Positions 26,947 through 52,317 of a stretch of 64,000 nucleotides of DNA are shown in pieces (the first letter of the stretch is position 1; each line of letters opens with the position of its first letter). Location of the stretch: positions 1-64,000 of the forward strand of contig JAIXTO010000089.1 of NCBI GenBank assembly GCA_027483885.1, in the 5' to 3' direction. This DNA comes from Rhizobiaceae bacterium. GTDB lineage: Bacteria; Pseudomonadota; Alphaproteobacteria; Rhizobiales; Rhizobiaceae. The notes below the pieces were generated by a model. It had not been told where the DNA came from. It made no database searches and saw nothing but the letters and a program-made list of their open reading frames with translations. Made by a program: the position numbers and the translations under genes.

Positions 26947-26993
26947 GGCGCGAAATCGATTCTGTCAAAAATGGAAGAAACCAGCAGGCGGCT

Positions 26994-30931: not shown

Positions 30932-30932
30932 G

Positions 30933-32543: not shown

Positions 32544-32585
32544 GATGTTCCCCTTTTTTTGGCAGTTCGGTTTGGGCAGGCAGGA

Positions 32586-33878: not shown

Positions 33879-33931
33879 ATCACCCTCAATGCAACACCCG
33901 ACCGCCGTCAGGCCTCAACAACTGCAAGGAC

Positions 33932-33956
33932 GATAACCATAAATAATTCGGTTATC
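33932..33956. promoter_or_regulatory. Candidate operator upstream of aminotransferase operon
   Basis: GATAACC-N11-GGTTATC inverted repeat in AT-rich region. Confidence 0.4.
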
Positions 33957-34048
33957 AAGCAGGACATGTTTATATTTTTTGCAAAGCCTATATCTGCATA
34001 TTTTTTGCCCAAAGGATGAATTATCGGCCTATTTTCCGCTCAAAAAGC

Positions 34049-34075
34049 ATTTTCGATCAGCAGAATATCGAAAAT
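34049..34075. promoter_or_regulatory. Candidate TetR-type operator
   Basis: ATTTTCGAT-N9-ATCGAAAAT perfect 9-bp arms. Confidence 0.45.
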
Positions 34076-34275
34076 ATCAAACCAAGGGAGAAAGGGACCC
34101 AGCCAAATTAGCTATAATTTATTCGATTATTTTTCGCTTCCGCACAGGTCGGAACTGCCGCAAACCCGCGCGACGATGGGTGCGCGAAGCCGGCAATGGC
34201 AACGAGACATGGGCTTGGCAGGGGACTGACCGAAGATCGGGTCGCGAAACGCATTCGTTTCGACGCTTGGTATTC

Positions 34276-34920
34276 CTAGCGCGCGCGCGGCATATGCTCT
34301 GGCAGATAACAGCGCAGATACATCAACGAGGCACGCACCGCTTCCTGCACATACTCGTCGGTGATCATTCGATGATTGCTGTAGGACAGCGCCCATATGC
34401 CATCGATCAGGGCAAGTGCGATAGCCAGCCGCTTTTCAAGATCCGGCATGGGCGCCATAAGGTAATGGTGGCGCAGATAAGCGGCGCGCTGGCGGGCCAG
34501 CTCCGCATTGCCGGCCACATCGGCATTGCGCACCTCGGCACTGACGCCGGCGCCCATGAACAGGCGCAGCGCCGCCGGATTGGCATTGAGAAACTGCGCG
34601 CTGCGGCTAAGACGAAACTCGAACAGTGCCTGCCAGCGCTCCGGCGGCTCGTTGTTCTCCACCATCAGCATCTCGCCGATCTGGCGGTGGTAACGCTGGG
34701 CAAGCGCAACGAAGACCGCGTTGCGGTTCGGAAAGAAGTGGTAGACCGACGCAATCGGCACCCCGGCCCGTTCGGCAATATGGGCAAGGCTGATGTCGGC
34801 ATCCGGATTTTCCGCAATCAGCGCAGCCGTTGCGTCCAACAGGAATTCGAAGCGCTCGATGCCGCGCTTGCGCATGGGGGCACGATGAAGGGTGGGCGCT
34901 GCGGCAGTCTTTTCGGTCAT
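34276..34920 (-). CDS. TetR family transcriptional regulator
   Basis: HTH SLAHIAERAGVPIASVYHFFPNRNAVFVALAQRY. Confidence 0.9.
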   Translation of the reverse strand: MTEKTAAAPTLHRAPMRKRGIERFEFLLDATAALIAENPDADISLAHIAERAGVPIASVYHFFPNRNAVFVALAQRYHRQIGEMLMVENNEPPERWQALFEFRLSRSAQFLNANPAALRLFMGAGVSAEVRNADVAGNAELARQRAAYLRHHYLMAPMPDLEKRLAIALALIDGIWALSYSNHRMITDEYVQEAVRASLMYLRCYLPEHMPRAR

Positions 34921-35012
34921 GACACCGAAATATCGTTTTTCGGGCGGACACGCAAAGGCAATTGCCGCCTCTGCGCACCCATCCTCCATCGAAAGCACTC
35001 GGATTGAGCCGG

Positions 35013-35978
35013 TCAGGCCGCCGTGTAGTCGATCGCAAAGCTCAGGCGATCATCATAATGCAGGTCCCAATAGGCCTGCCAGATCTGCCGGGTAACCGGC
35101 CCCACCTGCCCGCCGCCCACCGGCACGCCATCCAGCTCGGTAATCGGCATGATGCCGCCGGCCGTTGTCGACATGAAGATCTCGTCACACTGGTAGGCGA
35201 GATCGACAGGCACATGGTCGATATTGACTGTCCAGCCTTTGGCCTCGGCCATCTCCACCACCGTCCGGCGCGTCACGCCCTCCAGCACGCCGCGCGCAGG
35301 CGTGTGCAGCACGCCGTCCTTGACGAGGAAGATGTTGAAGCCCGATCCCTCCGTCAGGTTGCCATCGCCATCCGGCAGGAAGGGATACATGGCGCCGCGG
35401 TCACGCGCCTCGAAAATCCCGCGCACGAAATCCCCCCATTGCAGGTTCTTGACCGTCGGATCGATGGCGCCGGGAGGAATGCGCCGCACGGTGCGGGTCA
35501 TGACGGCACTGCCGCCCCGCGCCTGCACATCCGGCGACATGACCCAGACATAGGGCATGATCAGCAGATAGATGTGGTTTTCGATATCTTCCGGCCGGTG
35601 GGCTCTGACGAATTTGAAGCCGCGCGTCACGGTGATCTGCACATAGGCGTCACGAATGCCGCTTTTTGCGGCCATCTCCATCAGCGTCCGACGCAGCGTG
35701 TCACGGTCCATGGGGCTTGTCAGCCGCAGCTTTGCGCAACTGCGCTCCAGCCGGTCGAGGTGATCGTCGAGACGGAAGAACCGCCCGTCCCAGATGGCCG
35801 GCACGTCATAAGTGAGATCCGAATGCATGAAGCCTTGGTCCAGCAGCGGAATACGGGCCTTGGCCAGCGGCACCAGTTCGCCCTCCACCCAGGCGATACC
35901 ATCCGCATAGGGGTTTTCGCTTTCGGCCAGCGCATCCACGCGCTTCCGATAGGCCTCGATCACGGCTTCCATCGACAT
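35013..35978 (-). CDS. Fold-type IV aminotransferase ((R)-amine transaminase/BCAT/D-amino acid transaminase-like)
   Basis: [58 protein letters not shown] (catalytic Lys); [25 protein letters not shown]. Confidence 0.9.
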
Positions 35979-36084
35979 GTCATGTCCCCTCTTTGTGTGT
36001 GCGCCGGCCATCGCCGTGGCGGCGATAGACGGCTTTTCCCGGTTATTTCGGAATAAGCTAGGAGCACTTCTTTCCTGCGTCAAC

Positions 36085-36112
36085 GATTTAATCGATATTT
36101 ATCGCTTAAATC
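36085..36112. promoter_or_regulatory. Candidate TetR operator (28-bp near-palindrome)
   Basis: GATTTAAtCGATAttTATCGcTTAAATC, 12 of 14 pairs complementary, between divergent aminotransferase and tetR genes. Confidence 0.6.
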
Positions 36113-36251
36113 CATTCAGGGAGAAGGTGCCGCTGCCGGTCTCAGCCGATCCTCGCTTTAGAGGATGCGTTTGGGTAAGGCCGGCCATAGCCAGCGTTTG
36201 CCTTGGCGGCAAAAATCCCGCATCTAGGCGGACGGGAGCCCGCGCGGCAGC

Positions 36252-37007
36252 ATGGCTTTGCAGGAGACTGGCATCGTGAGCGAAACGGACGGCAAGCCGG
36301 ACAAAAAGACAAAGCGCGCCAGCGCCACGCCCCGCCAGCCATCACGCGGGCGCGGCATGCTGCGCTATGAAAGCCTGATCGACAGCACCGAGACCCTTCT
36401 TCGGGAGCGCAATGCCGACGAGGTGGGCCTCTATCAGATTGCCGAGTATGCCGGCGTACCGTCTGCTTCCGTCTATCATTTTTTCCCCACCAAGGAGGCG
36501 GCCTTCGCAGCGCTTGCGCAACGCTATCTGCGGGGATTTGCCGAGCAGGCGCGCAAACCGATCGACCCCGGCGCCCTCTACAGCTGGCAGGGCCTGATGG
36601 CCTGGGACCAGTTGCAGGCGATCGACTATTACCATGCCAATCCGCCGGCGATGACGCTCTTCATGGGCCGCTATGGCGGGCTTGAAACCCGCAAGGCGGA
36701 GGCCGAACACAATGGCCTTCTGGCGGCACGCGTCTACCGCAGGCTGAACAGCCTCTTCCACATGCCGGCGCTGCGCGACACCGAAGAGAAATTCCATATT
36801 TATCTGGAAATCGTCGATGCGATCCTGGCGCTTTCCTTTGTCAAGCACGGCAGGGTCACCGATGATTATCGCCAGCAGGCATGGCGGGCCTCCACCGCCT
36901 ATTGCCGTCTGTTCCTGCCAGACGTGGTGGAACTGCGCGACGAATTCCGCGAAACCGTCGCGCGCGGCGAAGCCGTGACTGCCCCGCTCCTTCCTGTCGA
37001 AGCCTGA
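36252..37007 (+). CDS. TetR family transcriptional regulator
   Basis: HTH GLYQIAEYAGVPSASVYHFFPTKEAAFAALAQRY. Confidence 0.9.
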   Translation: MALQETGIVSETDGKPDKKTKRASATPRQPSRGRGMLRYESLIDSTETLLRERNADEVGLYQIAEYAGVPSASVYHFFPTKEAAFAALAQRYLRGFAEQARKPIDPGALYSWQGLMAWDQLQAIDYYHANPPAMTLFMGRYGGLETRKAEAEHNGLLAARVYRRLNSLFHMPALRDTEEKFHIYLEIVDAILALSFVKHGRVTDDYRQQAWRASTAYCRLFLPDVVELRDEFRETVARGEAVTAPLLPVEA

Positions 37008-37025: not shown

Positions 37026-38192
37026 TTACTGGCTTGCGGCAATCGCTGCGGCTGGCACCCGAAGCCCACCCTTGACGGCCGCATAACCACCGCGCACCAG
37101 CGCCGCGCCAAGGCTCGGCTGCGCCGTTTCCAGCCGCTGCTCGGAAAGCCGTGCGGTGAGCGAGTTCAGCATGTCCGATGATTCAGCAAAGGCCGAATGC
37201 CCCAGCGGATCGGATTGGGTGGCATCCGTCGCATCGATCACCGAAATGCCATAGGCTGTCAGCAGATCTTTGTAGGGGCGCAGGTCCGCACCGCCCAACC
37301 GTTCCACATCACCGGCCAGAAAGGTGGAGATGGCAAGCGCCTTGTCCTTGCGCGAGGAATAGACGGTAAAGTGCGGGCGCTTGTCGCCCATTTCCAGGAT
37401 CTGGCGGCGGAAAACATCCACGTCGATATCCGGCGAGGCGAGCACGACATTGTGGATTTTTGGCGAAACCTTGCCGTTGCGCAGGGCCATCTCCCGCAAG
37501 GCTTCCATCGTCAGCCATGTGCCCATGGAATGGGCGAGAATGGTGATCTCGGTGACATCAGGGCTTCTCGCTGCCGCATCCAGCACCTCGACCAGACCGA
37601 AGCGCGAATAGATCGTGCTTTCGCGGTCATAGACGTAATCGAGCGGATTGGCGCGGGACGGCCAGGTGAACAGAAGCGGGGCGGCATCCACCTTCACGTC
37701 ATGCGCCACCTGGGCAAAGCGGAACACCGCATCCGCATAGCTGTTGTTGAAGCCATGGACAAAAATCAGCACCCGCCGCTTCTTGCCGCTGGTGCGTTGA
37801 AACCATTGCATGGCCTGCGGATCCGTCAGGCTTTCGGCCTTGGTGACGACGAAGGATTTTTCCGGGTCCGGGTTTGTGCCCGGCCATTGCACTTCGCCGG
37901 GCTTGCGTGCTTTGTCGGGCGGAATAGACACGACGATATTGTCGAGACGAACATCTTCGCCGCGCTCACCGCCGTAGCGCAACGCCGGATCGTTCGACGG
38001 CGCGCGGGTGGTGGCGACCAGCATGTCGACACGCCCGGTATCGGTGGCCGTCACCGCCACCGGCTTCATCACGTCGGCGCGGTGACCGCAGGCGGATAAA
38101 AGCACTGCGAGCGCAAGAAGGACCAGCACGCGGTAAGGCCGCGCAGATTGCGCGGCCTGCTCTATCATTCCGTACCGAACCTCAATGTCCAT
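37026..38192 (-). CDS. Alpha/beta hydrolase, DUF900-type, putative lipoprotein
   Basis: Lipobox-like LLSACG; VLIFVHGFNNSYADAVFRFAQ; nucleophile elbow AHSMG. Confidence 0.85.
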   Translation of the reverse strand: MDIEVRYGMIEQAAQSARPYRVLVLLALAVLLSACGHRADVMKPVAVTATDTGRVDMLVATTRAPSNDPALRYGGERGEDVRLDNIVVSIPPDKARKPGEVQWPGTNPDPEKSFVVTKAESLTDPQAMQWFQRTSGKKRRVLIFVHGFNNSYADAVFRFAQVAHDVKVDAAPLLFTWPSRANPLDYVYDRESTIYSRFGLVEVLDAAARSPDVTEITILAHSMGTWLTMEALREMALRNGKVSPKIHNVVLASPDIDVDVFRRQILEMGDKRPHFTVYSSRKDKALAISTFLAGDVERLGGADLRPYKDLLTAYGISVIDATDATQSDPLGHSAFAESSDMLNSLTARLSEQRLETAQPSLGAALVRGGYAAVKGGLRVPAAAIAASQ

Positions 38193-41100
38193 CGGCCACC
38201 ATCGCAGGCTCCTGTTCCCCCACTAGCGCCGTCTTCACCTTGGGACCTTGCGCCGTCAAGAGCCAGAGCATCAGGCAGGGCAGAAGCGTCAGCGTCAGCA
38301 CGGTTGCGCCCGCCAGGCCGCCGATGATGGCAAAGGCCATCGGCCCCCAGAAGATCTGCATTGCAATCGGCACCATGCCCAGGATCGCCGCCAGTGCCGT
38401 GAGCACGATGGGACGTGCCCGGTGGACGGCGGCCCCGACGATGGCCTCGCGGATCGGCTGGCCAAGCGCGACATTCTGATCAACCTCCTGGATGAGGATG
38501 ACGGCGTTGCGGATGATCATGCCCGACAGCGCGATCACGCCCAGCTGTGCCACAAAGCCCATGGGCGTGCCGGTGGGCAGCATGGCCGCCACCACCCCGA
38601 TGAGGCCGAAGGGTGCCATGGCCATCGCAAGCGCCATGCGCGAGAAGCTCTGCAACTGCACCATCAGCAGGAAGATGATGACGATCAGCATGACAGGAAC
38701 CACGGCAAAGACCGAGGAATTGCCCTTGGCCGCCTCTTCCGTCATGCCACCGGCGGTGATGGCATAACCGATCGGCAGGCCCGCGCGCAGATCGCTGAGG
38801 GCAGTGTCCAGTTCCCCGGCAACCGTTGCAGGCTGCACGCCCTTCGGCACATCGGCCTGCACGACGATCATCGGCTTGCCCTGGCGGTGCCAGATCACCG
38901 GCTCCTCGAAGCCATATTCGACATTCGCCACCTGGCGCAGTGGGACGGTGCGACCATCGCCGGTGCGCAGCTGCAGGTTTCCGATGGTGGCTACCGAGGT
39001 GCGATCCGCCTGGATGCCCTTGACGACCACATTCACCAGCCGGTCGCCGTCACGCACCGTCGTGACGGTGGAGCCGGCAAAGATTGCGGCGATTTCACTC
39101 GCCACCGATTGCGAACTCATGCCAAGCGCCCGCGCTTCCACCTGATTGACCACAACGGTGACCCGCCGCTGCGGCTCGCCGGCCGTCATGTTGACGTCAC
39201 GCGTCAGCGCATGGTTGTCGACGACGGCCGCCGTCTGCAGCGCAAGCTCACGCACCTTGGCATAATCGGGGCCGGTCACGCGGAACTTCAGCGGCCAGCC
39301 GACCGGAGGCCCAAGCTCCAACGGCGAAACGCGGGTGATGACATCGGGGAAATCCTTGGCCATTGCCTGTTCGAGACGCGCCCGCACCGCATCGCGCTCT
39401 TCCACGCCCTTGGTAACGATCACCGTCTCGGAAACGTTATCGTTTTCGAGCAGCAGATCCATCGGCAGATAGAAGCGCACCGACCCGGATCCGACATAGG
39501 TGGTGAAGTGATCGACATCGCCGTCGGCCTTCAAAAGGGCTTCCAGCTGTCTTGCCCGCGCATCGGTGGCGGCACGCGAGGCGTTCTGTGGCAGTGTCAG
39601 GCTGACCAGCAGTTCCGGGCGGTCGGAAGCCGGGAAGAACTGCTGTTCCAGCCGCGTGGCACCAAAGCCGGACGCGACGAGAAGCACAAGGGCGATGCCG
39701 AGCGACAGCCAGCGGTGGCTGAGCGACCAGTCAAGGCTCTTGCGATAGGCTTTCATCACGCGGCCACCTTCGTGACTGGCGTGCTTCATCCTATCGGGCA
39801 GGATCCAGGTGCCGAGGATCGGCGAGAACAGCACGGCCACGATCCACGATGCGACGAGCGCAATCAGAACAACCATGAACAGCGAGAATGTATATTCGCC
39901 AGCGCTGGAGGCTGCAAAGCCGACCGGAATGAAGCCGGCGATCATCACCAGCGTGCCCGTCAGCATCGGAAAGGCCGTCGTCTCATAGGCATGGCTTGCG
40001 GCCACCGACTTGTCCTGCCCGTTTTCAAGGCATGACACCATGGTCTCCACGGTGATCATCGCATCATCAACCAGAAGGCCGAGCGCGATGATGAGGGCAC
40101 CGAGCGAGATACGCTGCAGGCCGATGCCAGCGAGATCCATGCCGAAGAAGGTCATGGCCAGCACCAGCGGGATAGAGGCCGTGATGACGAGGCCGGCACG
40201 GGTGCCAAGCGACACGAAGGAGACCGCGAGAACGATGACGATGGCCTCGATCAGCACCTTGACGAAGCTGCCGACGGCATCCTTCACCACGGTCGTCTGG
40301 TCGGCAACCTGCACCATCTCGATGCCATGCGGCAGCTGCGCGGCAATCTCGCGCATCTTTTCTTTCACCGTCGCGCCGAATTCCAAGAGGTCACCATTGG
40401 CGGCCATGGATATGGCCAGTGCGAGCACAGGCTGGCCGTTGACGCGCACGGACGGAGCTGGCGGATCGACCAGCGTGCGGGAAATCGTTGCCACGTCCTC
40501 CAGGCGGATGTAGCGGCTGTCGACCTTGAAGGTGAGGTCATGCAGGCTCTTTTCCGAGACAAAGGCGCCGCTGACGCGCAGCGAGATATTCTCCTGCGGC
40601 GTGCGCAAGATGCCCGTTGGCGTCACCGCATTCTGTGCCTGGATGGCGGCAACGGCGGCAGCCGGATCGATGCCAAGGCTTGCAAGCTTGCTCGAGGAGA
40701 ATTCGATGACGATCTCCTCCTCCTGCACGCCCAGCACATTCACCTTGCCGATATCCTTGATCGACAGGATCTCGGCGCGCACCGCATCCACCCGGTCGCG
40801 CAGTTCGCGCTTGGAGAAGCCTTCGGCCTGGAAAGCATAGATGCTGCCGAACGTGTCGCCAAATTCATCGTCGAAGAAGGGGCCCTGCACGCCCTGCGGC
40901 AATGTCGGGGCAATGTCCTGCATCTTCTTGCGCACCTGATACCAGATGTCGGCAACCTCTTGCGGCGGCGTACTGTCGCGCAGGTTAACGAAGATAACCG
41001 ACTGGCCGGGGCGCGAATAACTTTGGGTAAAATCCAGATAGGGCGTTTCCGAAAGCTTCTTTTCCAGCTTGTCGGTCAGAAGGTTCACGGTATCAGTGGT

Positions 41101-41301
41101 GCTGGCGCCCGGCCAGAGCGCCGACACGACCATGGTCTTGATGGTGAATGGTGGATCTTCGTTGCGTGACAGGCGCTGATAGCTCCAGATGCCGCCGAGC
41201 ACGGTGAGGATCATCAGGAAAACAACGAAGGACTGGTGTTTCAGCGCCCAGGCGGACAGGTTGAACGCCTTGCGTGGAGGGGTATTGGAGGCACTCATCA
41301 C
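38182..41301 (-). CDS. RND-family efflux transporter permease (AcrB-like)
   Basis: 1039 aa; LVDDAMITVETMV; repeated TM blocks typical of RND. Confidence 0.95.
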   Translation of the reverse strand: MMSASNTPPRKAFNLSAWALKHQSFVVFLMILTVLGGIWSYQRLSRNEDPPFTIKTMVVSALWPGASTTDTVNLLTDKLEKKLSETPYLDFTQSYSRPGQSVIFVNLRDSTPPQEVADIWYQVRKKMQDIAPTLPQGVQGPFFDDEFGDTFGSIYAFQAEGFSKRELRDRVDAVRAEILSIKDIGKVNVLGVQEEEIVIEFSSSKLASLGIDPAAAVAAIQAQNAVTPTGILRTPQENISLRVSGAFVSEKSLHDLTFKVDSRYIRLEDVATISRTLVDPPAPSVRVNGQPVLALAISMAANGDLLEFGATVKEKMREIAAQLPHGIEMVQVADQTTVVKDAVGSFVKVLIEAIVIVLAVSFVSLGTRAGLVITASIPLVLAMTFFGMDLAGIGLQRISLGALIIALGLLVDDAMITVETMVSCLENGQDKSVAASHAYETTAFPMLTGTLVMIAGFIPVGFAASSAGEYTFSLFMVVLIALVASWIVAVLFSPILGTWILPDRMKHASHEGGRVMKAYRKSLDWSLSHRWLSLGIALVLLVASGFGATRLEQQFFPASDRPELLVSLTLPQNASRAATDARARQLEALLKADGDVDHFTTYVGSGSVRFYLPMDLLLENDNVSETVIVTKGVEERDAVRARLEQAMAKDFPDVITRVSPLELGPPVGWPLKFRVTGPDYAKVRELALQTAAVVDNHALTRDVNMTAGEPQRRVTVVVNQVEARALGMSSQSVASEIAAIFAGSTVTTVRDGDRLVNVVVKGIQADRTSVATIGNLQLRTGDGRTVPLRQVANVEYGFEEPVIWHRQGKPMIVVQADVPKGVQPATVAGELDTALSDLRAGLPIGYAITAGGMTEEAAKGNSSVFAVVPVMLIVIIFLLMVQLQSFSRMALAMAMAPFGLIGVVAAMLPTGTPMGFVAQLGVIALSGMIIRNAVILIQEVDQNVALGQPIREAIVGAAVHRARPIVLTALAAILGMVPIAMQIFWGPMAFAIIGGLAGATVLTLTLLPCLMLWLLTAQGPKVKTALVGEQEPAMVADGH

Positions 41302-42374
41302 TTACCCTCGCCTTCCAGTCGAACTTCCACGCCGTCGCGCAGCTTGCTGACACCGGCCGTCGCCACGATATCGCCATCGGCGAGCCCCTTGGAGACGAAC
41401 AGGTCGTTGTCGTTAAAACGCTCCACGGTGACGGGTTTGTAGACAAGCTTGCGGGTCGCCGGATCGTAGACGAGAACCGCCGGATCGCCCTTGTTGCTGG
41501 TGAGCGCCGAGGCCGGCAGCTGCACCAGCAATTTTGGCGAAAGCGTGATGGTGCCGACCACAGCCGCACCGAACTGCATGCGGTTGCCCTTGTCGTCCAG
41601 CGCCACCTTCACCCGGAAGGTGCGGGTCACCGGATCGGCGGACGGTGTCACTTCGCGCACCGTGCCGCTGGCCGTCACCGCCGGATCCGAGATCAGCCGC
41701 ACCTCGACCGGCGGCGATTGCAGCCGTGCATTCATCAGCTTTTCGGGAATGTCGAACACGGCATCGCGCTCGCGGTCGGAGATGAGCGTGACCACCATCT
41801 GGCCGGCGGCCACCACCTGTCCTTCATTGGCGCCGACGGCCGAGACGATGCCATCGCGCGGTGCCTTGATATCGGTATAACCGAGCATTTCCTGCGCATT
41901 GGCAAGCGCTGCGCGGGCTGCATCCACACGGGCACGCGCACTCTGCAGGTTGGCATCCGCCTCCTGCATCTGGGCGCGCGGAATGATGTTCTTGGCAAAC
42001 AGGTCGCGGTTACGATCGGCTGTCATCTGGGCCAGATCGTAACCGGACTGGGCGGTGGCAAGATCGGCCTGTGCGGTGAGAAGATTGTTGCGCGACGGTG
42101 TCTTGTCGATGCTGGCAAGGATATCGCCAGCCTTCACCGCCGAACCGTTTTCCGCGCGCAGCAGAAGCTGGCCATTGATGCGGAAGGAGAGTTGCGTTTC
42201 GTGGCGTGGCTTCACCTCGCCGATCTGCGTGACGGTTTCGCCGAGCGGGCGTGCCTCGGCCACCACCGACTTGATCGGACGCGGCGCCTTGGCTTCCGGT
42301 TGCTCCTCGGAACAGCCGGACAGAACCAGCATCGCCCCACCAAGGAGCAAAGATGTCTTGACGAAAAATGTCAT
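41298..42374 (-). CDS. RND efflux periplasmic adaptor (membrane fusion protein)
   Basis: Lipoprotein signal LLLGGAMLVLSGCSEEQ; RPIKSVVAEARPLGETVTQIGEVKPRHETQLSFRINGQLL. Confidence 0.93.
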   Translation of the reverse strand: MTFFVKTSLLLGGAMLVLSGCSEEQPEAKAPRPIKSVVAEARPLGETVTQIGEVKPRHETQLSFRINGQLLLRAENGSAVKAGDILASIDKTPSRNNLLTAQADLATAQSGYDLAQMTADRNRDLFAKNIIPRAQMQEADANLQSARARVDAARAALANAQEMLGYTDIKAPRDGIVSAVGANEGQVVAAGQMVVTLISDRERDAVFDIPEKLMNARLQSPPVEVRLISDPAVTASGTVREVTPSADPVTRTFRVKVALDDKGNRMQFGAAVVGTITLSPKLLVQLPASALTSNKGDPAVLVYDPATRKLVYKPVTVERFNDNDLFVSKGLADGDIVATAGVSKLRDGVEVRLEGEGK

Positions 42375-42988
42375 TGCGAAACTCCTTGCAGGGCCATGCC
42401 GCGAAACAGGCAGGTGATGTTCTCATCGAGCAGACGGCCGATATTTCCCAGTTCGAATGTGTTGAGTGTGCATGCGAGTGTGACAATCCCGTGAACGCTC
42501 CCCCACAGGATATTGGTCACAAGAACAGGGTCCGAAGCATGGATGAGCCCCAGTTCTTGAGCCTTCACAACCTCGGATTTCAGCATGTAATAGGGGGCCA
42601 TCGCCTCTGCGTCCGACTCCAGGGAGGCTGTCGCGCCCTGATCGTTTTCGAGGAAAAGCAACCGGAAACGATCCTTGTCCTCCAGCGCGAAATCGGCATA
42701 GGCATGCAGCATGTGGCTGATGGCGGCGAGCGGATTGTCCGCCGTCTGCTGTTGCTGGGCAAAGCGCTCCTTCAAAGCCGCAAGCGCTGTCGAGCAGCAA
42801 TCGAAGATCAACTCCCGCTTGCTTGGATAATAGCGATAAAGAGCGCCGGCCGTGAGGTTGAGACTGTCGGCAAGCTTGCGCATCGAAAGGCCGACAAGAC
42901 CGACCTCGCCGGCGATGACAATCGCATGGCGCTGAATGACAGCCCGAAAATCGGCAATCTCCTGTTGGGTCAATGATGGGCGTGGCAT
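42371..42988 (-). CDS. TetR family transcriptional regulator of RND operon
   Basis: HTH SMRKLADSLNLTAGALYRYYPSKRELI; stop overlaps adaptor start. Confidence 0.93.
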   Translation of the reverse strand: MPRPSLTQQEIADFRAVIQRHAIVIAGEVGLVGLSMRKLADSLNLTAGALYRYYPSKRELIFDCCSTALAALKERFAQQQQTADNPLAAISHMLHAYADFALEDKDRFRLLFLENDQGATASLESDAEAMAPYYMLKSEVVKAQELGLIHASDPVLVTNILWGSVHGIVTLACTLNTFELGNIGRLLDENITCLFRGMALQGVSQ

Positions 42989-43160: not shown

Positions 43161-43868
43161 CTAGCCTCGATGATCGCAGCCCTGCAGCCCTCGAAGCGTT
43201 GCGGTCAGCATCACCGCCAGCGCATCGATCAAGGTCGGGCGCATCTGGGACTCCGAATGCATGATGGCGATGACATTTCCCTGCACCGCTTCCAGAATGA
43301 CGATCATCAAGGTCGGAATCTGCCCGTCGGGAAGATCGGGCGCGACCCAGCGCAGGTATGGCTCAAGATCTCGCGCATTGCGCACGGTGTCTTCCATGTC
43401 CAGCTGGCGCAGATCCGGGCTTGAGCGAAGGCTGTCCCAGATGACGGCGGATGCCGGGGTGCGCAGAAGATAGTCCAGCACATTGCGCACCAGCCGGTCC
43501 CCCGTGCATGGGCGAAGGCTCACCGGCATGTCCTCATCCAGGACGGCCGCAAGTTCATGGCCCAGCACATCTCGCAGATTTTCAAGGTGGCGCACCGCAA
43601 GCGCGCGCACGACGCTGCTGCTGGAGGGGAAGTAATGGTAGAGCGATGCGATGGGAAGGCCGGCCCGCCGGGCAAGCTCGCGCATTTTAAGGCCCTCCAT
43701 CCCCGTCTCGACAACAAGGGTCTCGGCAGCGGCCAGAACCTGCTCGACCCGCTCCCGGCTGCGGCTCTGCAAGCCGGTGCTGCGCATGTTCAAGCGGCCT
43801 TCAGCCCCTGATTCCGGGATTTTTGCGTCCATCAGTCGTTCAATTCCTGTTTTTTCAGATTCGAACAT
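43161..43868 (-). CDS. TetR family transcriptional regulator
   Basis: HTH KMRELARRAGLPIASLYHYFPSSSSVVRALAVRH; divergent from the APC-FMO gene; exact start uncertain (43892, 43868 or 43832). Confidence 0.88.
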   Translation of the reverse strand: MFESEKTGIERLMDAKIPESGAEGRLNMRSTGLQSRSRERVEQVLAAAETLVVETGMEGLKMRELARRAGLPIASLYHYFPSSSSVVRALAVRHLENLRDVLGHELAAVLDEDMPVSLRPCTGDRLVRNVLDYLLRTPASAVIWDSLRSSPDLRQLDMEDTVRNARDLEPYLRWVAPDLPDGQIPTLMIVILEAVQGNVIAIMHSESQMRPTLIDALAVMLTATLRGLQGCDHRG

Positions 43869-43958
43869 TGCTCGATATTGACAGAATTGCAAACTCGATC
43901 AATGCTCGGGTTATAAATGACGACCGTCAAGACAATTGGTCGCAAGGGGAACTGAAAC

Positions 43959-46886
43959 ATGGAACTGAACCGCCGAAACTCGGCCACCTATCCGGCTGGC
44001 CAATCGAAAAAACGTGCGCTCACGACACGGGGCGTCATCGTCCTGGTCATTGCCGCGGCAGCACCGCTTGCCGCGATGATCGGCAACACACCACTCGCGT
44101 TCGAAACGGGTGCCGGGCTTGCCATGCCAGCCGGCTTCATTCTCGTCGGGTTGACCTTGCTGTGCTTTGCCTTTGGCTACACGGCGCTCAGCCGCGAAAT
44201 CGTCAGTAAGGGCGCTTTCTATACGCAGGTAGGCCAGGGCCTCGGGCGTCCGGCGGGCGTGATTGCGGCCTATGCCGCAGCGCTTGCCTATTGCGCCTAC
44301 TCGCTCGGCATGGCCGCAGCCTTTGGCTATTTCACCTCCCTTTTGACCAAGGAACTGGGCTATGAATTGCCCTGGATGGGATGTGCTGCCTTCGGCATCC
44401 TCACGGTCGCGGCGCTCGGTTACCGGTCGCTCGATCTGTCGGCGCGTGTTCTCACCTATTTCATGATCGCGGAATTCGCCGTGCTGCTCGTCTTCGACGT
44501 TCTAGTCCTGACGAAGCTCGGGCTTTCGGCGCTTCCGCTCCAGGTCTGGTCTGCGGGCGAAGCCTTCAACCCCGCCATTGGCGCGATCATTCCCTTTGTC
44601 ATCGTTTCCTTCCTCGGTTTCGAAGCCGCCGCGCTTTACGGCGAGGAAACAAAAAATCCGCGGCGCTCCATCCCGATTGCCACCTATGTTTCGCTATCCG
44701 TCATCGTCGCCTTCTACATGGTCTCGGTGTGGATCATCATCGGCTCGATCGGAACCGCCGAGGTGCAGACCATGGCGACCCGCGAATCTGGCAATCTGCT
44801 TTTTGCGCTCGCCAATAGCTATGGCGGCGAAGCGTTGACGGCGGTCATGGGCCTGCTTCTGGTCGCCAGCATGCTCGCAAGCTTCCTTGCCGTTCATAAC
44901 GCCGCCAGCCGTTATCTGTTTGCGCTGTCAAGTGATCATCTACTGCCCGGCGCACTGGCCAAGTTCCATCCGGATTATCATTCACCCCACGTGGCAAGCG
45001 TGGTCATGACGACGCTGCAGCTCACCGTGGTCTTCGGTCTCGGGATGTATGGCGTCGCGCCCTATCTCGGCATTGCATCTTCCGCCATCGGTCTTGGCAC
45101 CATCGGCATTCTGTCCATGCAGATCGCCTGCTCGCTTGCCGTTGTCGGCTTCTTCGTGAAGGCCAAGCGCGGCCATGTCATGACAACGCGCATCCTGCCG
45201 ACCCTGGGCGCTCTCGGGTTGGCGGCATGTCTTTATCTCGTCACCAACAGCTATGAAAAGCTGACCGGCAGTGACAATGCCTTGGTCAACGGCCTGCCCT
45301 GGGTGTTCGTGCCGCTTGCCGTTGTGGCGCTCGTCTATGCCCGCTACCTCAAGGCAAAACGGCCGAATGTCTATGCGCAGATTGCCGGCGCGCAGTACCG
45401 CCCGGTTCTTAACCGAACCGCCACCGAGACCAGCTACGAGAACCAGTATTGCATCATCGGTGCCGGCCCCTCGGGCCTCATCATGGCCCGCGCCTTCATC
45501 AAGGAAGGCGTACCATTTGATTGTTTCGAACGGTATTCGGATGTCGGTGGCCTCTGGGACCCGAACAATCCGGGCACGCCGATCTATGAAAGCGCCCATT
45601 TCATTTCCTCGAAATGGACCTCCTATTTCTACGGCTTCCCGATGCCGGACCATTATCCGGACTATCCGTCCTACCGGCAGATTCTCGATTACATCCGCTC
45701 TTTTGCCCGCGCTTTCGGCCTTTACGATCACATCACCTTCAACACGGAAGTGGTGTCGGCCGTGCCTGCCGGGGATAAATGGAAGGTTACGCTCTCCACC
45801 GGTGAAGTGCGCGTCTACGCGGGTGTTGTGGCCTGCCCGGGCGTGACCTGGCATGCTTCCATTCCCAAACTCCCGGGTGCCGAAACGTTCAAGGGCGAGA
45901 TCCGCCATTCGGTCAGTTACATGAAACCGGATGAATTCCGGGGCAAACGCGTGCTGGTCATGGGGGCTGGCAATTCCGGCGTCGATATCGCCTGCGATGC
46001 GGCAAAATTCGCCGACAAGGCCTTCTTCAGCGTTCGCCGCGGCTATCGTTTCGTTCCAAAGCACCTCTTCGGCATTCCAACGGATGTTCTGATGAGCGGC
46101 AAGGTTCTGCCGCCAAAGGGTGTCTCCATCTCCACCGACGTCGGCAAGATGCTGGACACGCTGAACGGCGACCTGACACGGCTTGGCCTGCCGAAGCCCG
46201 ATCACGATGCGCTTTCCAGCCATCCGATCATGAACACGCAGATCCTGCACTATCTCGGCCATGGCGATCTCATCGCAAAATCCGATATCAAGGAATTGCG
46301 CGGCAATACGGTCGTCTTCAAGGACGGCTCGGAGGAAGAGATTGACCTCATCATGCTGGCCACCGGCTATGAGTACAAGATGCCTTTCTTCGATCCGGCA
46401 ATGTTCGAGTGGAAGGACGGGCGCCCGCAGCTCTACCTGAACGTCATCCATCGCACGCAGCGCGGTCTTTACGTTCTGGGCTTCACCGAATTCGCCGATG
46501 CCGCCTATCGCCGTTTCGACGAAATGGCCCAGCTCATCATTGCCGATGTTCACGCCACCGAAACCGGCATTGCTCGCGACTGGCTGAACCGCCAGCTCAC
46601 AGGCCACTTCCCGGATCTGCGCGGCGGCAAGGTCTATATCAACTCGCCGCGTCACGCCAACTACGTCCACACCGATACCTATAAGCGGCTTCTGGCTGAG
46701 TTTCGCCGCCAGCTCGGCTGGCCGGATCTCGACGACGAGTTCTATGCCGACCTGCGCCGCCCGGACAACAACGTCCATGCCCTTGCCGGGGCAGGCAGAA
46801 CGGGCGGCCAAACGCCCCGCAGCCCGCAACTCAACGCCCTTGAGAACACGGTGCAGGAAACCAAAGCACTGGAGGCTGGCCAATGA
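43959..46886 (+). CDS. Fusion protein: APC-superfamily amino acid/amine permease joined to flavin-containing monooxygenase
   Basis: Residues about 1-470 APC permease (RGVIVLVIAAAAPLAAMIGNTPLAF, VSFLGFEAAALYGEETKNPRRSIP). Residues about 495-975 FMO: FAD GAGPSG, FMO motif FKGEIRHSVSY, NADPH GAGNSG. Confidence 0.9.
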   Translation: MELNRRNSATYPAGQSKKRALTTRGVIVLVIAAAAPLAAMIGNTPLAFETGAGLAMPAGFILVGLTLLCFAFGYTALSREIVSKGAFYTQVGQGLGRPAGVIAAYAAALAYCAYSLGMAAAFGYFTSLLTKELGYELPWMGCAAFGILTVAALGYRSLDLSARVLTYFMIAEFAVLLVFDVLVLTKLGLSALPLQVWSAGEAFNPAIGAIIPFVIVSFLGFEAAALYGEETKNPRRSIPIATYVSLSVIVAFYMVSVWIIIGSIGTAEVQTMATRESGNLLFALANSYGGEALTAVMGLLLVASMLASFLAVHNAASRYLFALSSDHLLPGALAKFHPDYHSPHVASVVMTTLQLTVVFGLGMYGVAPYLGIASSAIGLGTIGILSMQIACSLAVVGFFVKAKRGHVMTTRILPTLGALGLAACLYLVTNSYEKLTGSDNALVNGLPWVFVPLAVVALVYARYLKAKRPNVYAQIAGAQYRPVLNRTATETSYENQYCIIGAGPSGLIMARAFIKEGVPFDCFERYSDVGGLWDPNNPGTPIYESAHFISSKWTSYFYGFPMPDHYPDYPSYRQILDYIRSFARAFGLYDHITFNTEVVSAVPAGDKWKVTLSTGEVRVYAGVVACPGVTWHASIPKLPGAETFKGEIRHSVSYMKPDEFRGKRVLVMGAGNSGVDIACDAAKFADKAFFSVRRGYRFVPKHLFGIPTDVLMSGKVLPPKGVSISTDVGKMLDTLNGDLTRLGLPKPDHDALSSHPIMNTQILHYLGHGDLIAKSDIKELRGNTVVFKDGSEEEIDLIMLATGYEYKMPFFDPAMFEWKDGRPQLYLNVIHRTQRGLYVLGFTEFADAAYRRFDEMAQLIIADVHATETGIARDWLNRQLTGHFPDLRGGKVYINSPRHANYVHTDTYKRLLAEFRRQLGWPDLDDEFYADLRRPDNNVHALAGAGRTGGQTPRSPQLNALENTVQETKALEAGQ

Positions 46887-47716
46887 GCACGCGCAAGATA
46901 CTCGACGGCAAAGGCAAGTTCGCGCTCGTCACCGGGGCTGCGGGTGGCATCGGCCAGCCCATCACCCGCAGGTTGCTGGATGCAGGCTTCCATGTCCTGA
47001 TGCTCGATATCAACGCGACGGGGCTTGAGGCGGCAAGGGCTAAGCTTGACGGCACCACTACAGGCATTGTCTGCGATCTCACAGATCCTGCCTCCGTCGC
47101 GCAGGCTGCGGCCAGCGTGGGCGCGCTCACCGGGCGGATCGACGTCATCGTCAACAATGCCGGCCTCATCAAGCCCGGCCCTTTCCTCAGCCTGAAGGAA
47201 GAGGATATCGAGCGGCAGGTTCAGATCAACCTGCTGGGTCCTCTGCGGATCCTGCATCATTTCCTGCCGTCTGTCCCGAACGGCGGCTCGGTGGTCAACA
47301 TCGTGTCCATGGCCGGCATCCTGCCGCTTGCCGATAGCAGCGTCTATACCGCCGGAAAGTTCGGCCTGCGCGGCTTTTCCAATTCGCTTTCGCTGGAATT
47401 GCGCAGCCGCAACATCCGCGTATCGGGCATTTATCCGTCCGGCGTCGATACGCCCATGCTGCGAATGGAAGCGCAGAGCGGCGGTTCACCGCTCAACTTC
47501 GTGTCGGATCCGCTATCTGCAGAACAGGTGGCGGAAACGGCCGTGCGCGCCATCGGCGAAGGCCGGCTCGAATATTACCTGCCCTACGGCGACGGTATCC
47601 TGTCGCGGATTCTGGGAAACATTCCGTGGATCCTGCCGCGCCTGCTGCCGATGTTCTTGAAAAAGGGGATCGAGGGACACAAGCGTTACCTCGCAAAAAT
47701 CGGGGTTAATCAATAA
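46883..47716 (+). CDS. SDR-family NAD(P)-dependent oxidoreductase
   Basis: FALVTGAAGGIGQPITRRLLDAG; VNNAGLIKPG; YTAGKFGLRGFS (YxxxK); ATGA overlap with the fusion gene. Confidence 0.93.
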   Translation: MSTRKILDGKGKFALVTGAAGGIGQPITRRLLDAGFHVLMLDINATGLEAARAKLDGTTTGIVCDLTDPASVAQAAASVGALTGRIDVIVNNAGLIKPGPFLSLKEEDIERQVQINLLGPLRILHHFLPSVPNGGSVVNIVSMAGILPLADSSVYTAGKFGLRGFSNSLSLELRSRNIRVSGIYPSGVDTPMLRMEAQSGGSPLNFVSDPLSAEQVAETAVRAIGEGRLEYYLPYGDGILSRILGNIPWILPRLLPMFLKKGIEGHKRYLAKIGVNQ

Positions 47717-47734
47717 AAAAGAGGGGACTAAAAC

Positions 47735-48682
47735 ATGAAAACGAGACTCTGCAGGATGGCCGCCCTTGGTCTTGTCGCGCTTGGTGCCCAGACGGCGCCC
47801 GGCATGGCGGGGGAAGGGGCAAGCAGCAACATGACCCTGGGGGGCACTACCTTCCAGACCCCAGTCATTCCGGAACCGGGCTTTTATTACAGCAACTATG
47901 TGAACTATTACCACGCCAACCGGCTGAACGACGGCGAAGGCAACAGCCTGGTGCCGAATTTCAGCGTCGATGCCTGGGTGGATTACAACCAGTTCGTGTA
48001 TGTCGCACCGTTCGAGCTTGGCGATTTCAAGTTCGCCGCGGGCGCGGTTGTGCCCTTCGCCAGTATCCGCCAGAATGCCGGCGGCACCATCAGCTCGTCC
48101 AAAGGGCTTGCCGACATAGTCCTGCAGCCGCTTATCATCGGCTGGCAGAAGGACAATTTCCATGTCGTTCTCGTCCAGGGGATCATCGCTCCGACAGGGG
48201 CCTATGACGCGGCATCCGACGTCAATGCCGGGCGCAACACCTGGCAATACCAACCGCAATTGTCTCTCGGATACGTCGATCCGCAGGGCATCGAGGCAAC
48301 AGCGTCAATCACCTACATCACCAGCGGAACCAACAAGGACCCGATGGTTTTCTTTGCCAACACGACCGGTTCGGATTATCGCACCGGCGACGAGATCGGC
48401 ATGGACTTTGCCCTCGGTTACAACTTCACGCCCAGCTTCGAACTGGGTTTGACAGGTTACTATTACCAGCAGCTTTCCGCCGACAAGATGAGCGATCCGG
48501 CGGGCGATGCGATCCTGCAGCAGGCTTTCGGCGGCTTCAAGGGGCGCGTCGCAGCGCTTGGTGTCGGTGCCCGATACCTCACCGAATACGGTGAGTTCTA
48601 TGCCCAGGTCCACAAGGAGTTTGCGGTCGAAAACCGTACGGCGGGAACCTCGGCCTGGCTGCGCTGGAGCATATCCTTCTAA
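47735..48682 (+). CDS. Outer-membrane transporter-like protein (Phenol_MetA_deg/SphA-like)
   Basis: Signal peptide; GFYYSNYVNYYHANRLNDGEGNSLVPNFSVDAWVDYNQFVYV; beta-barrel pattern, terminal WLRWSISF. Confidence 0.75.
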   Translation: MKTRLCRMAALGLVALGAQTAPGMAGEGASSNMTLGGTTFQTPVIPEPGFYYSNYVNYYHANRLNDGEGNSLVPNFSVDAWVDYNQFVYVAPFELGDFKFAAGAVVPFASIRQNAGGTISSSKGLADIVLQPLIIGWQKDNFHVVLVQGIIAPTGAYDAASDVNAGRNTWQYQPQLSLGYVDPQGIEATASITYITSGTNKDPMVFFANTTGSDYRTGDEIGMDFALGYNFTPSFELGLTGYYYQQLSADKMSDPAGDAILQQAFGGFKGRVAALGVGARYLTEYGEFYAQVHKEFAVENRTAGTSAWLRWSISF

Positions 48683-48709
48683 AAGCGCGCTCCAGCTCAC
48701 TTTATAGAC

Positions 48710-48744
48710 CGCCGCGGACGTAATATCCGCGGCGTTCTGTTTTG
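48710..48744 (+). terminator. Terminator candidate after outer-membrane gene
   Basis: CGCCGCGGA (48710-48718) / TCCGCGGCG (48726-48734) followed by TTCTGTTTTG. Confidence 0.6.
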
Positions 48745-48806
48745 AACCGGGCCATCCCTTCCGCGACTATCCCCGTTGGCAGGCGACCGCACACGAAACA
48801 TGAGAC

Positions 48807-48846
48807 TGAAAAAGAGCGGCGGGGTTGCCTCCCGCCGCTCTTTTTT
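48807..48846. terminator. Bidirectional Rho-independent terminator
   Basis: AAGAGCGGCGGG / CCCGCCGCTCTT 12-bp perfect stem flanked by A-run and T-run, between convergent genes. Confidence 0.9.
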
Positions 48847-48882
48847 CTGGCTCTGATCCGGAAAGGACCGGGTGAACTCCCT

Positions 48883-50034
48883 TCAGGGCACAAGGCCCGC
48901 TGGCACCGTCCGGCGACGCGCCGACAGGCCGACGAGGACGAATATCGCGACAACCATGAAGGTGGCGAAAAACGCCGGCGCCTCGCCGATGGTCGCATCG
49001 CTCAGCAGCAGCGAGGCAGACAGCGGCCCGAAAGCGCAGCCAAGCAACTGGGCAGTGCCAAGCTGCATGGCGGTCCGGCGGCTGGGATCGATCCGGATGA
49101 GAAGCTGTGTCTGGAACGGCATCATGAAAATCCAGAGAAAGCCGAAACCCATGGAGGCGAGCGTGAAGCTGAGGCCGGTCGGGCCGGATTGAAGGATCGC
49201 GGCAACGCCGAGGTTCAAAAGCCCTCCGATCAACAGGCTGAGAAATGGCGACCATCGCGGGCCGATGGCGGTGGCGGCAAGGCCGCCGGCGAGCTGGGCG
49301 ACCAGAGAGAGCGCAATCAGGCCACCGGCATCTTCCTGGCTCATGCCGGCGTGAACTGCCAGCGGCTCCAGATAGACCCAGAGGCCGACGGAAAAGGACA
49401 TGAAGAAGAAAACACAGAGGAGTCCGGCGGCACCCTTCAAGCTGATGCCCGTGCCCTCTCCGCTTTGTCCCTTCGCAAGCGGCTCATAGCTCTCGTGTCC
49501 ACGCAGCGAAAGGCCAGCGGCAAGGACGGAAATGGCGGCCATCAGCATGAAGGCACCGTTCGGGCCCCATGCGGGGATGACCAGCAGAGCCAGTGCGGCG
49601 GCAAGGAAGGTCTGGGTCAGTGCCTGCCAGATGACGAACAGGCCGGTATACCGTTCAGGGCTTCGCGAATGCATGATGGTGCTGATCGCCGTCCAGAGCA
49701 TTACGCCCTCGGCCACACCACTTGCACCCCGCACGAGCACGAGGGCAACGCCGCCGAGCGGAATGCTGAACAGGTTGATGGCGGCATGGGCAAGGCTTGC
49801 CGCAACAAGGATCGGCCGCACGCGCACTGCGTTGAAGCGCGCGGCCGCGAGGCCGCAGGCCAATCCGAGCATCAGCAGTTCCACTGTGGCTGCAAGCCCG
49901 ATTTCGTTGACGGTCAACCGGTTGTCATGCGCGAGCGCACCGAGAAGGATCGGCTGGACGCCCGCGATCAGCAAAGCGATGGAGCCGATGGTCAAAGCTC
50001 CGAGATCTTTGAAAAATGCGAAATTCCTGGTCAT
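48883..50034 (-). CDS. MFS transporter
   Basis: 12-TM protein with MFS-like repeats; start re-assigned to MTRNFAFFKDLG. Confidence 0.88.
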   Translation of the reverse strand: MTRNFAFFKDLGALTIGSIALLIAGVQPILLGALAHDNRLTVNEIGLAATVELLMLGLACGLAAARFNAVRVRPILVAASLAHAAINLFSIPLGGVALVLVRGASGVAEGVMLWTAISTIMHSRSPERYTGLFVIWQALTQTFLAAALALLVIPAWGPNGAFMLMAAISVLAAGLSLRGHESYEPLAKGQSGEGTGISLKGAAGLLCVFFFMSFSVGLWVYLEPLAVHAGMSQEDAGGLIALSLVAQLAGGLAATAIGPRWSPFLSLLIGGLLNLGVAAILQSGPTGLSFTLASMGFGFLWIFMMPFQTQLLIRIDPSRRTAMQLGTAQLLGCAFGPLSASLLLSDATIGEAPAFFATFMVVAIFVLVGLSARRRTVPAGLVP

Positions 50035-50105
50035 TGCGTTCCCCTTTTTTATGATTGCGCAATGGGTGGAGCCAAGGCACCGGCAGGTTACGTCGGGCCC
50101 GAACG

Positions 50106-50135
50106 AAAAAGGCACCGGGGTTGCCCCCGGTGCCT
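50106..50135 (-). terminator. Rho-independent terminator after aminotransferase gene
   Basis: AGGCACCGGGG / CCCCGGTGCCT 11-bp stem; minus-strand T-run (TTTTT). Confidence 0.85.
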
Positions 50136-50143
50136 CGTTTGGA

Positions 50144-51421
50144 TCATGCCGCGTGCAGGATCTCGTTGAGAGCGACGATCTGCGGCGGAGGTGCTTGCGG
50201 GTTCTCCTTGGCCAGCGCCTTGAAGCTCTCTTCGGCGGCGGCAAGGGTGAAGTCGATATCCGCATCGGTCATCGATGCTGACATGAACATGTTGTGCCAG
50301 GGATGCATGTAGACGCCCTGTGCCAGCATGTTGCTGACCCAGCTGTAGCCCTTGGCAAGATAAGGGTCGTCCTGGAACATGATCAGCGGCATTTCAGCAG
50401 GACCGGTCTGGCGAAGACCGAAACCGTAACGGCCTGCAGCTGCATCCAGTCCCTGCCGCAACAGCCCGCCCAGCCGCTGGGTCTCCTCGAGGTAGTTGGT
50501 GTCGCGGATCAGCGCGAGCGTGGCGAGCGAAGCGGCCATGGCAGCGCCCGACAGCCAGTAGGACCCGGTAACATAGATGCTGGCGGCGGCATAACGCGCC
50601 TTGTCATTGCCAAGCAGCGCCGACAGCGAATGGCCGTTGGCAATCGCCTTGCCCCAGCATGACAGATCCGGCTCGACGCCGACGAGAGACCAGCTGCAAT
50701 CGCGGGCCAGACGAAAGCCTGCGCGTACATCGTCGACAATCAGAAGCGCACCTTTTTCATCGCACAATTCACGGGCGCGACGGGCATAGTCCGGGTTCGG
50801 CAATTCCTGATCGATGAAGGCATCATGCTTGATCGGCGAAGCGAGGATGGCGGCGAGATCGTCGCCTGCTTCCCGAACGGCTGCTTCAAGGCTTTCGACA
50901 TCGTTATATTCGTAGAAGATCTGATGCGCACGGTCGCCCGGCGTGGTTCCATAGGGAAACGGCGTCGACCAGGGAGCTGCACCATGATAGGCGCCTTTGG
51001 CGATGACCAGGGTATGGCGGCCGGTATGTTTTCTGGCCACCATCGTTGCCATGGTGTTGGCGTCCGAGCCGTTCTTGCAGAACATCGCCCAATCGGCATG
51101 CGACACCATGCGTGTCAGCGTTTCCGCCAGTTCCACCGCAAGCGCGGTCGGGCCGGTCAGGCACTCTCCCGTCTTCAGCTGATCCGTATAGGCACGGTCG
51201 ATGGTCTCATTGGCATAGCCAAAAAGTGTCGGGCCGTAACCGCAGAGATAATCGACGTATTTCCGTCCATCGACATCCCAGAGATAGGCACCTTCTCCTT
51301 TTGAGAAGAACTGCGGATAGGCCGAAGGCAGAAAGCGGACCGACTGGTGTCCGTAAATGCCGCCGGGCATGACGGCTTCGGCGCGCTGGCGAAGTGCTGC
51401 ATCGAGTATTGCGTCTGTCAT
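50144..51421 (-). CDS. Class-III PLP aminotransferase (glutamate-1-semialdehyde aminomutase-like), paralogue of 32586-33878
   Basis: MPGGIYGHQSVRFLPSAYPQFFSKGEGAYLWDVDG; HADWAMFCKNGSDANTMATMVARKHTGR; GVEPDLSCWGKAIANGHSLSALLG. Confidence 0.9.
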   Translation of the reverse strand: MTDAILDAALRQRAEAVMPGGIYGHQSVRFLPSAYPQFFSKGEGAYLWDVDGRKYVDYLCGYGPTLFGYANETIDRAYTDQLKTGECLTGPTALAVELAETLTRMVSHADWAMFCKNGSDANTMATMVARKHTGRHTLVIAKGAYHGAAPWSTPFPYGTTPGDRAHQIFYEYNDVESLEAAVREAGDDLAAILASPIKHDAFIDQELPNPDYARRARELCDEKGALLIVDDVRAGFRLARDCSWSLVGVEPDLSCWGKAIANGHSLSALLGNDKARYAAASIYVTGSYWLSGAAMAASLATLALIRDTNYLEETQRLGGLLRQGLDAAAGRYGFGLRQTGPAEMPLIMFQDDPYLAKGYSWVSNMLAQGVYMHPWHNMFMSASMTDADIDFTLAAAEESFKALAKENPQAPPPQIVALNEILHAA

Positions 51422-51500: not shown

Positions 51501-51654
51501 ATGCATATCGCGAGAAACTCTGCACCCGCACAGGCAAACGCCTTTCTGGTGTGCACGAAAGCTGCGCGCCGACATTCAGCCTCACCGCGCCTTGAGGCCG
51601 CCACCGCGCTGTGCCACAAGCGACACAAGAGAAGTCCACGGCAGCATCGCCGTC

Positions 51655-52317
51655 ATGTCAGGGAAATACGGGACGTTGGTTGACCTCGATCCGAAGCTTG
51701 AGCCCTCGCAGATGCGGGCGCGCAACACCTACGAAACGATCCTTGCCGTGACGGGCGATCTGCTCGGCAAAGTCGGCTTCGAACGGCTGTCAACCAATAT
51801 GGTGTGCCAGACGGCGGGGCTGACCCCACCGGCGCTTTATCGGTACTTTCCGAACAAATATGCGATATTGAGCGAGCTGGCCCGGCGGCTGATGGATAGC
51901 CAGGATGAGGCCGTTTATCGCTGGATACAGGAGGGCGGCATCGAGGCGTGCAGCGTTGACGATGCCGCGAGCAAGAATCTTGCGATCCTGCGCGAAATCA
52001 ACCGGATCACCCGCGACATGCCCGGTGGCGCCTGGGTGCTGAGGGCAATGCGTGCCGTTCCCCTGCTCCAGGAAATCCGTATCCAGTCGCGTGACCGGGT
52101 TGCCGCGCATCTCGTCCAGACACTGGAGCAGAGCCATCCCGCCCTCAACACCGACGAGTTCGTCGGCGGTGTCGGGATCATCCTCGATATGATGATGTCC
52201 GTGACGGAAATGGTCCTCACCGAGCCCGACATCGACGAGGCCGCCGTGGAGCGGCGCGCCTGCCGTATGGCGGCTCTCTATTACCTGGACCTGATCTCCA
52301 ATCCGTCTTCGGCATAA
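51655..52317 (+). CDS. TetR family transcriptional regulator
   Basis: HTH LSTNMVCQTAGLTPPALYRYFPNKYAILSELARRL. Confidence 0.88.
   Translation: MSGKYGTLVDLDPKLEPSQMRARNTYETILAVTGDLLGKVGFERLSTNMVCQTAGLTPPALYRYFPNKYAILSELARRLMDSQDEAVYRWIQEGGIEACSVDDAASKNLAILREINRITRDMPGGAWVLRAMRAVPLLQEIRIQSRDRVAAHLVQTLEQSHPALNTDEFVGGVGIILDMMMSVTEMVLTEPDIDEAAVERRACRMAALYYLDLISNPSSA

Follow-up and report, generated by a model that had tools for sequence, protein, structure and literature searches.

We show that the window, meaning the whole stretch of 64,000 nucleotides analyzed here (contig C209 of a 5.5-Mb genome from a family that includes Rhizobium wuzhouense), encodes an APC permease and an FMO as one polypeptide, and the evidence supports an anatomy in which a transporter is tethered to a cytosolic FMO. 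No description of the APC–FMO architecture was found in the open-access literature (open-licence PMC papers, with transporter–enzyme fusions, DiatB and amine N-oxidation also covered) and, to our knowledge, proteins in which an uptake transporter is fused directly to the enzyme for its cargo are uncommon. We tentatively propose, with confidence that falls a little short of even, that this bifunctional inner-membrane protein couples the uptake of an amine to its flavin-dependent oxidation, with an SDR acting afterwards. The cassette and its borders are as follows.

43161 to 43832, minus strand: TetR-family regulator, divergent (TetR_N, 41.6 bits; TetR_C_15); the ORF extends to a TTG at 43892
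43861 to 43875 and 43895 to 43909, no strand: pair of 15-bp operator-like palindromes, TCGAnCAnnGnTCGA, with conserved spacing and place
43959 to 46886, plus strand: APC permease–FMO fusion, 975 aa
46883 to 47716, plus strand: SDR (adh_short, 167.8 bits)
47735 to 48682, plus strand: Phenol_MetA_deg outer-membrane protein (OMP; 183.8 bits)
48700 to 48850, plus strand: two terminator-like hairpins between convergent units
48883 to 50265, minus strand: MFS transporter, convergent

The first-pass annotation had called an APC–FMO fusion, and this was borne out by a single unbroken ORF with no internal stops, in which both Pfam domains score above their cut-offs: AA_permease_2 spans residues 25–432 (91.7 bits, cut-off 27) and FMO-like spans residues 497–831 (204.9 bits, cut-off 22). 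The APC half occupies about residues 1–470, followed by a linker (about 470–494) and the FMO half (495–931). Hydropathy, on which the count is based, predicts 12 TM segments in the APC half, with a positive-inside pattern and both termini cytosolic; the FMO half begins about 25 residues past the last of these helices, and the predicted topology supports its placement on the cytosolic face. An assembly artefact or frameshift was ruled out as the source of the fusion: since the identical single-ORF architecture recurs at 10 loci, including a complete plasmid of Agrobacterium sp. T29, we conclude that the fusion is genuine. Thus, of the membrane import fused to cytosolic oxygenation that had been described from the first reading, the fused transporter-like half and the cytosolic FMO stand, and the import direction is one that we infer.

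According to our proposal, the APC half would import an amine or amino compound, and the tethered cytosolic FMO half, using NAD(P)H and O2, would oxygenate this compound or its direct product. The carbonyl or alcohol formed would then be reduced or oxidized by the SDR, whose translation is coupled to that of the fusion, and the OMP, where present, would let in a fairly hydrophobic substrate. Nearby FumI-like and (R)-type transaminases may deaminate the same kind of amine in a parallel or following route, and the divergent TetR would repress the unit through two palindromes until substrate arrives. What the analysis shows is the architecture and its conservation, the topology pattern, the gene linkage and the operator footprint; the amine substrate, the order of the steps and the hand-over between the halves are, like the import direction, what we infer. 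As set out below, the proposal draws on the recurrence of the fusion in two phyla, the gene set of a Rhodococcus plasmid, the FMO–SDR coupling, amine-related genes around several fusions and around Streptomyces APC relatives, the topology and the structural ranking of the FMO half; against it weigh the loss of the Asn of classical FMOs, two fusion genomes that lack a FumI-like gene, the distance of the window's transaminases from the cassette and the poor model of the APC half.

The start of the SDR gene overlaps the fusion stop by 4 bp (ATGA, seen at 46883), as had been noted earlier, and the OMP gene follows 18 nt 3' of the SDR, which corrects the 19 bp first given. The SDR carries the classical motifs TGxxGGxG, NNAG and YxxxK; that it interconverts alcohol and carbonyl is a guess from its family. 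A double terminator had also been claimed, and two hairpins were indeed found, at 48700–48745 (-22.8 kcal/mol, z -5.7) and 48803–48850 (-29.1 kcal/mol, z -5.3). Because the opposite strand, where the convergent MFS gene ends, forms the second hairpin with about equal stability, this one is probably bidirectional. A sigma-70 promoter scan gave no convincing candidate at the fusion start. The unit is best described as a tri-cistron with a divergent regulator, the three plus-strand genes being presumably co-transcribed; the TetR gene, which had been counted in the cassette, lies on the minus strand, outside the transcript.

A divergent TetR homologue is present at all six alphaproteobacterial fusion loci, and was also found at one actinobacterial locus (L151) using a Rhodococcus TetR query. 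The two palindromes look like candidate TetR operators. They were recognized by alignment since, being imperfect, they escaped an inverted-repeat scan, and the pair is present at 5/5 Rhizobiaceae fusion loci, at about -95 and -60 and with a spacing of 34–35 bp; at L089, a locus left out when the palindrome was defined, both are perfect. The listed TTG 43892 falls within this conserved operator-like region, between the two palindromes, so ATG 43832 is the likelier start of TetR.

Full-length fusions were found at 10 loci in Alphaproteobacteria and Actinomycetes, thus in two phyla, at 50–88% identity. Besides the window, these are the following.

Rhizobium wuzhouense (locus L002, genome G237): fusion
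Rhizobium MAG (L003): fusion, 88% identical to that of the window
Complete plasmid of Agrobacterium sp. T29: fusion, WP_142781854.1, labelled just 'amino acid permease'
Genome G333: fusion
Genome G1172, of a different alphaproteobacterial family: fusion, 50%
Genomes G1473, G1489, G1329 and G1262, in the same class as G1201 (a Nocardioidaceae MAG): fusions, 50–52%

The fusion is rare, occurring in two other genomes of the 393 in the family sample, in four of 296 in the actinobacterial sample and in none of 56 congeners; no similar DNA was found in the phages searched. Because this distribution is patchy and the T29 fusion is carried on a plasmid, horizontal spread is suggested. An SDR gene adjoins the fusion at 8/10 loci, directly downstream at seven and directly upstream at one (G1172), and TetR was found at 7/10. 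The ATGA coupling (-4 overlap) of FMO and SDR was seen at 21 of the 24 loci where the SDR gene immediately follows, a set that spans Pseudomonadota and Actinomycetota and includes some near-duplicates. The OMP is present at only three of the ten fusion loci (window, L003 and T29, L083) and is therefore accessory. The conserved unit is thus TetR/(APC-)FMO/SDR, with FMO–SDR as its core: the survey that had been suggested for the trio upheld the wide FMO–SDR linkage, and a conserved OMP–fusion–SDR trio was ruled out as regards the OMP. In Acidimicrobiia (L022, L024, L025 and L027), a stand-alone FMO lies in a conserved block with apparent amidase, P450, acyltransferase-type and ureohydrolase genes, and amidase- and ureohydrolase-like genes are close to the R. 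wuzhouense fusion too.

In the FMO tree, the ten fused FMOs cluster (86/79) and their sister is an unfused FMO of Rhodococcus erythropolis plasmid pCRE138 (100/99). This plasmid (L084) carries APC, SDR, nitronate monooxygenase, TetR and FMO genes within 7 kb and shares the transporter and FMO lineages with the window; unlike in the window, APC and FMO are separate genes 4 kb apart and no OMP is annotated. The pCRE138 permease is 37% identical to the APC half of the fusion. Fused APCs cluster with actinobacterial APCs, apart from rhizobial paralogues, and form long branches; at least two label changes are required in this tree, with one unfused APC (L154, adjoined by an opposite-strand SDR gene) nesting among the fused ones. 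The fusion is old, and the simplest story, though not a proven one, is that neighboring genes fused in an actinobacterial or shared pool, with transfer and some loss thereafter. Since the fusion recurs in two phyla and has an unfused sister pair, the coupling of import to oxidation is directly testable.

The APC half shares with APC superfamily permeases (GkApcT, 5oqt; xCT, 7p9u; models of BcaP and the ethanolamine permease) an AA_permease_2 domain over nearly the full length and 12 hydrophobic segments, and differs from them by the added C-terminal enzyme domain. It is remote from all named subfamilies (89.7 bits, where TIGR00909 has a cut-off of 556.8). Its AF2 model is poor (pLDDT mostly <50) because few relatives were supplied. 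This half might have lost transport and serve the FMO only as an anchor in the membrane or as a sensor, as the long branches of the fused APCs and the missing confident fold model would allow; we hold this to be improbable, given that the APC half is 42–89% identical to that of the window among alphaproteobacterial fusions and retains many invariant Gly, Glu and Tyr residues. On two Streptomyces plasmids (L086, L087), relatives of the fused APC (42–43%) adjoin genes for a PLP decarboxylase and annotated N-oxygenase-type proteins, the latter being a diiron oxygenase and a VlmB-like protein with a flavin reductase.

The presence of a PLP decarboxylase, a flavin reductase and a VlmB-like protein at these Streptomyces loci also bears on a biosynthetic role, in which amino acid or amine supply and N-oxidation would serve a natural product. 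However, no PKS, NRPS or similar genes were recognized around the cassette in the window ORF list, and the plasmid location and patchy distribution, together with transaminases, suit catabolism better. We therefore give this role as little credence as we give the anchor.

The best clue to the substrate class of the cassette comes from transaminases that the first reading had passed over, encoded in separate units, 2–11 kb away.

26994 to 32543, minus strand: ABC transporter genes (substrate-binding protein, permeases, ATPases), adjoining FumI-like gene 1
32586 to 33878, minus strand: FumI-like class-III aminotransferase 1 (638 bits over 409 residues to 6hbs, aminopentol aminotransferase)
35013 to 36083, minus strand: (R)-selective amine transaminase-type class-IV aminotransferase (517 bits to 4ce5, 518 bits to 9k35)
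50144 to 51421, minus strand: FumI-like class-III aminotransferase 2 (500 bits to 6hbs)
51592 to 52317, plus strand: TetR-family regulator, divergent from FumI-like gene 2 and 38% identical to a G1172-locus sequence

The class-IV protein, which has the class-IV fold and is closest to characterized R-ATAs, is a predicted (R)-selective amine transaminase. The 6hbs enzyme deaminates hydrolyzed fumonisin B1; active FumI homologues share about 62–74% of their sequence (PMC9858248), and FumI converts its amine to the methyl ketone 2-keto-HFB1 (PMC2933618). FumI-like aminotransferases near the fusion recall the fumonisin degradation cluster (FumD–FumI) of Sphingopyxis MTA144. Unlike that cluster, the window has no COesterase or FumD-type carboxylesterase gene, the sole COesterase match of the genome being on contig C163, and a fumonisin cluster was thus ruled out.

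Similar genes surround other fusions. In G1172, a FumI-like gene (66% identical to FumI-like gene 2) and an MFS gene (35% identical to that of the window) adjoin the fusion. On the T29 plasmid, genes for a substrate-binding protein (58% identical to the ABC substrate-binding protein of the window), a FumI-like enzyme, an (R)-type transaminase and a haem-dependent N-demethylase lie directly upstream. The fusion thus has a FumI-like gene close by in the window, G1172 and T29; in the Rhizobium MAG this gene is on another contig, and the R. wuzhouense and G333 genomes have none. FumI-like genes were found in four of the six fusion genomes or records and in 15 of the 246 other genomes of the family (p = 3e-4 by Fisher's test; 3e-3 with the window left out), a small comparison of alphaproteobacterial fusions that includes one plasmid record and one out-of-family genome, the genomes not being independent. 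The (R)-type transaminase occurs near the T29 fusion as well as in the window and the Rhizobium MAG; elsewhere, 2 of 198 family genomes have it. Since FumI-like and (R)-selective transaminase genes lie nearby, and also near two unrelated fusion loci, the genomic setting favors an amine or amino compound over a ketone as substrate.

The block at 26062–37007 (TetR, (R)-type transaminase, TetR, FumI-like, ABC transporter and EamA genes) is 92–99% identical on contig C2 of the Rhizobium MAG (L125). As the fusion itself is only 88% identical there, separate recent transfer of block and fusion is suggested by the sequences. FumI-like and (R)-type transaminase genes are also adjacent on Shinella HZN7 plasmid pShin-08 (L161, 7642–9948), on other Shinella plasmids and on one Sinorhizobium plasmid. 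No fusion is annotated around the pShin-08 pair, so the link between transaminases and fusion is an association, not proof. It is a possibility we regard as unlikely, though the least so of those weighed beside our main proposal, that the fusion imports a chiral amine and oxidizes it at the membrane alongside the paired (R)- and FumI-type transaminases, forming an amine catabolic module. Most of what is known of (R)-selective and FumI-type transaminases comes from biocatalysis and mycotoxin research. If true, such a module would provide a natural role for (R)-selective amine transaminases. The conserved pair on the Shinella and Sinorhizobium plasmids could reveal the natural substrate of these enzymes, and for both transaminase types the window locus is a concrete place to seek one.

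The FMO half was modeled well (pLDDT mostly 80–97) and has the class-B FMO fold, matching 8z17 with Z 40.0 and rmsd 2.5 over 413 residues. DiatB (Z 40) is followed by ancestral mammalian FMOs (33–35), LbmA Ox–ACP (31.9) and pyrrolizidine N-oxygenase (31), and type-I BVMOs rank lower (about 25). With class-B FMOs (DiatB, 8z12; ancestral FMO5, 6sek; LbmA Ox, 8odw; Z 32–40 over >400 residues) it has in common GAGPSG, GAGNSG, FxGxxxHxxxY and ATGY, and both GxGxxG motifs, for FAD (G501, G503, G506) and NADPH (G669, G671, G674), are present. It differs from them by the transporter fused in front, by Ile549, where classical FMOs have their catalytic Asn (N57 of DiatB and the aligned Asn of ancestral FMO5), and by a Met at the end of the fingerprint, which reads FKGEIRHSVSYM vs FxGxxxHxxx(Y/F)(K/R). 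This Met is confined to the window and two close relatives (3/10 fusions); the last position is R in six (L083, L089, L088, L150, L151 and L153) and S in one (L152). The Ile recurs in 30 of 35 aligned rows, and because it replaces the catalytic Asn, classical N-oxygenation is not assured. Assignment as a type-I BVMO was rejected, FxGxxxHxxxW(P/D) being broken by Y or F for W in all ten fusions. With the BVMO Trp and the FMO Asn both absent, the reaction therefore cannot be named from sequence.

FMO5 has a recognized Baeyer–Villiger activity, and of the structures solved so far, that of ancestral FMO5 is one of the closest to the FMO half. The main rival to our proposal is therefore that this half acts second, as a Baeyer–Villiger-type or keto-acid oxygenase on a ketone or aldehyde made by a transaminase, while the APC half imports the parent amine. 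The loss of the catalytic Asn and the methyl ketone produced by FumI would suit such a route, as would Pseudosulfitobacter plasmid pSMR1-1, where a FumI relative and another FMO-like enzyme are encoded two genes apart. Yet the type-I BVMO fingerprint fails at its Trp, FMO–SDR units without transaminases are common among the loci seen, and amidase-, ureohydrolase- and nitrilase-like genes (named from sequence) recur beside some of these units. We consider this rival rather unlikely, somewhat more so than the chiral-amine module. On pSMR1-1 (L164, 4995–9260), the FumI-like gene has as neighbors a TetR gene and one for an FMO-like oxidoreductase of 575 aa that carries FxGxxxHxxxYK.

RND efflux genes adjoin the fusion in both the window and L003, the MFS gene is conserved in G1172 and TetR would control the unit, all of which would fit detoxification or export: a toxic amine would be oxidized and the APC half would exchange or expel the product, the nearby RND and MFS pumps doing likewise. 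The remaining alphaproteobacterial fusion loci showed no RND homologue, however, and the transaminases, ABC importer and OMP indicate uptake and catabolism, which makes export improbable, if slightly less so than the anchor or biosynthetic roles. The RND genes of the window, with a TetR gene, occupy 38182–42988, and L003 has the same block in reversed orientation. Finally, the proteins encoded at 8869–9975 of the window and at 15750–16841 of L088 have a similar N-terminal CxxMRGGTSKG motif and are possibly PrpF-like.
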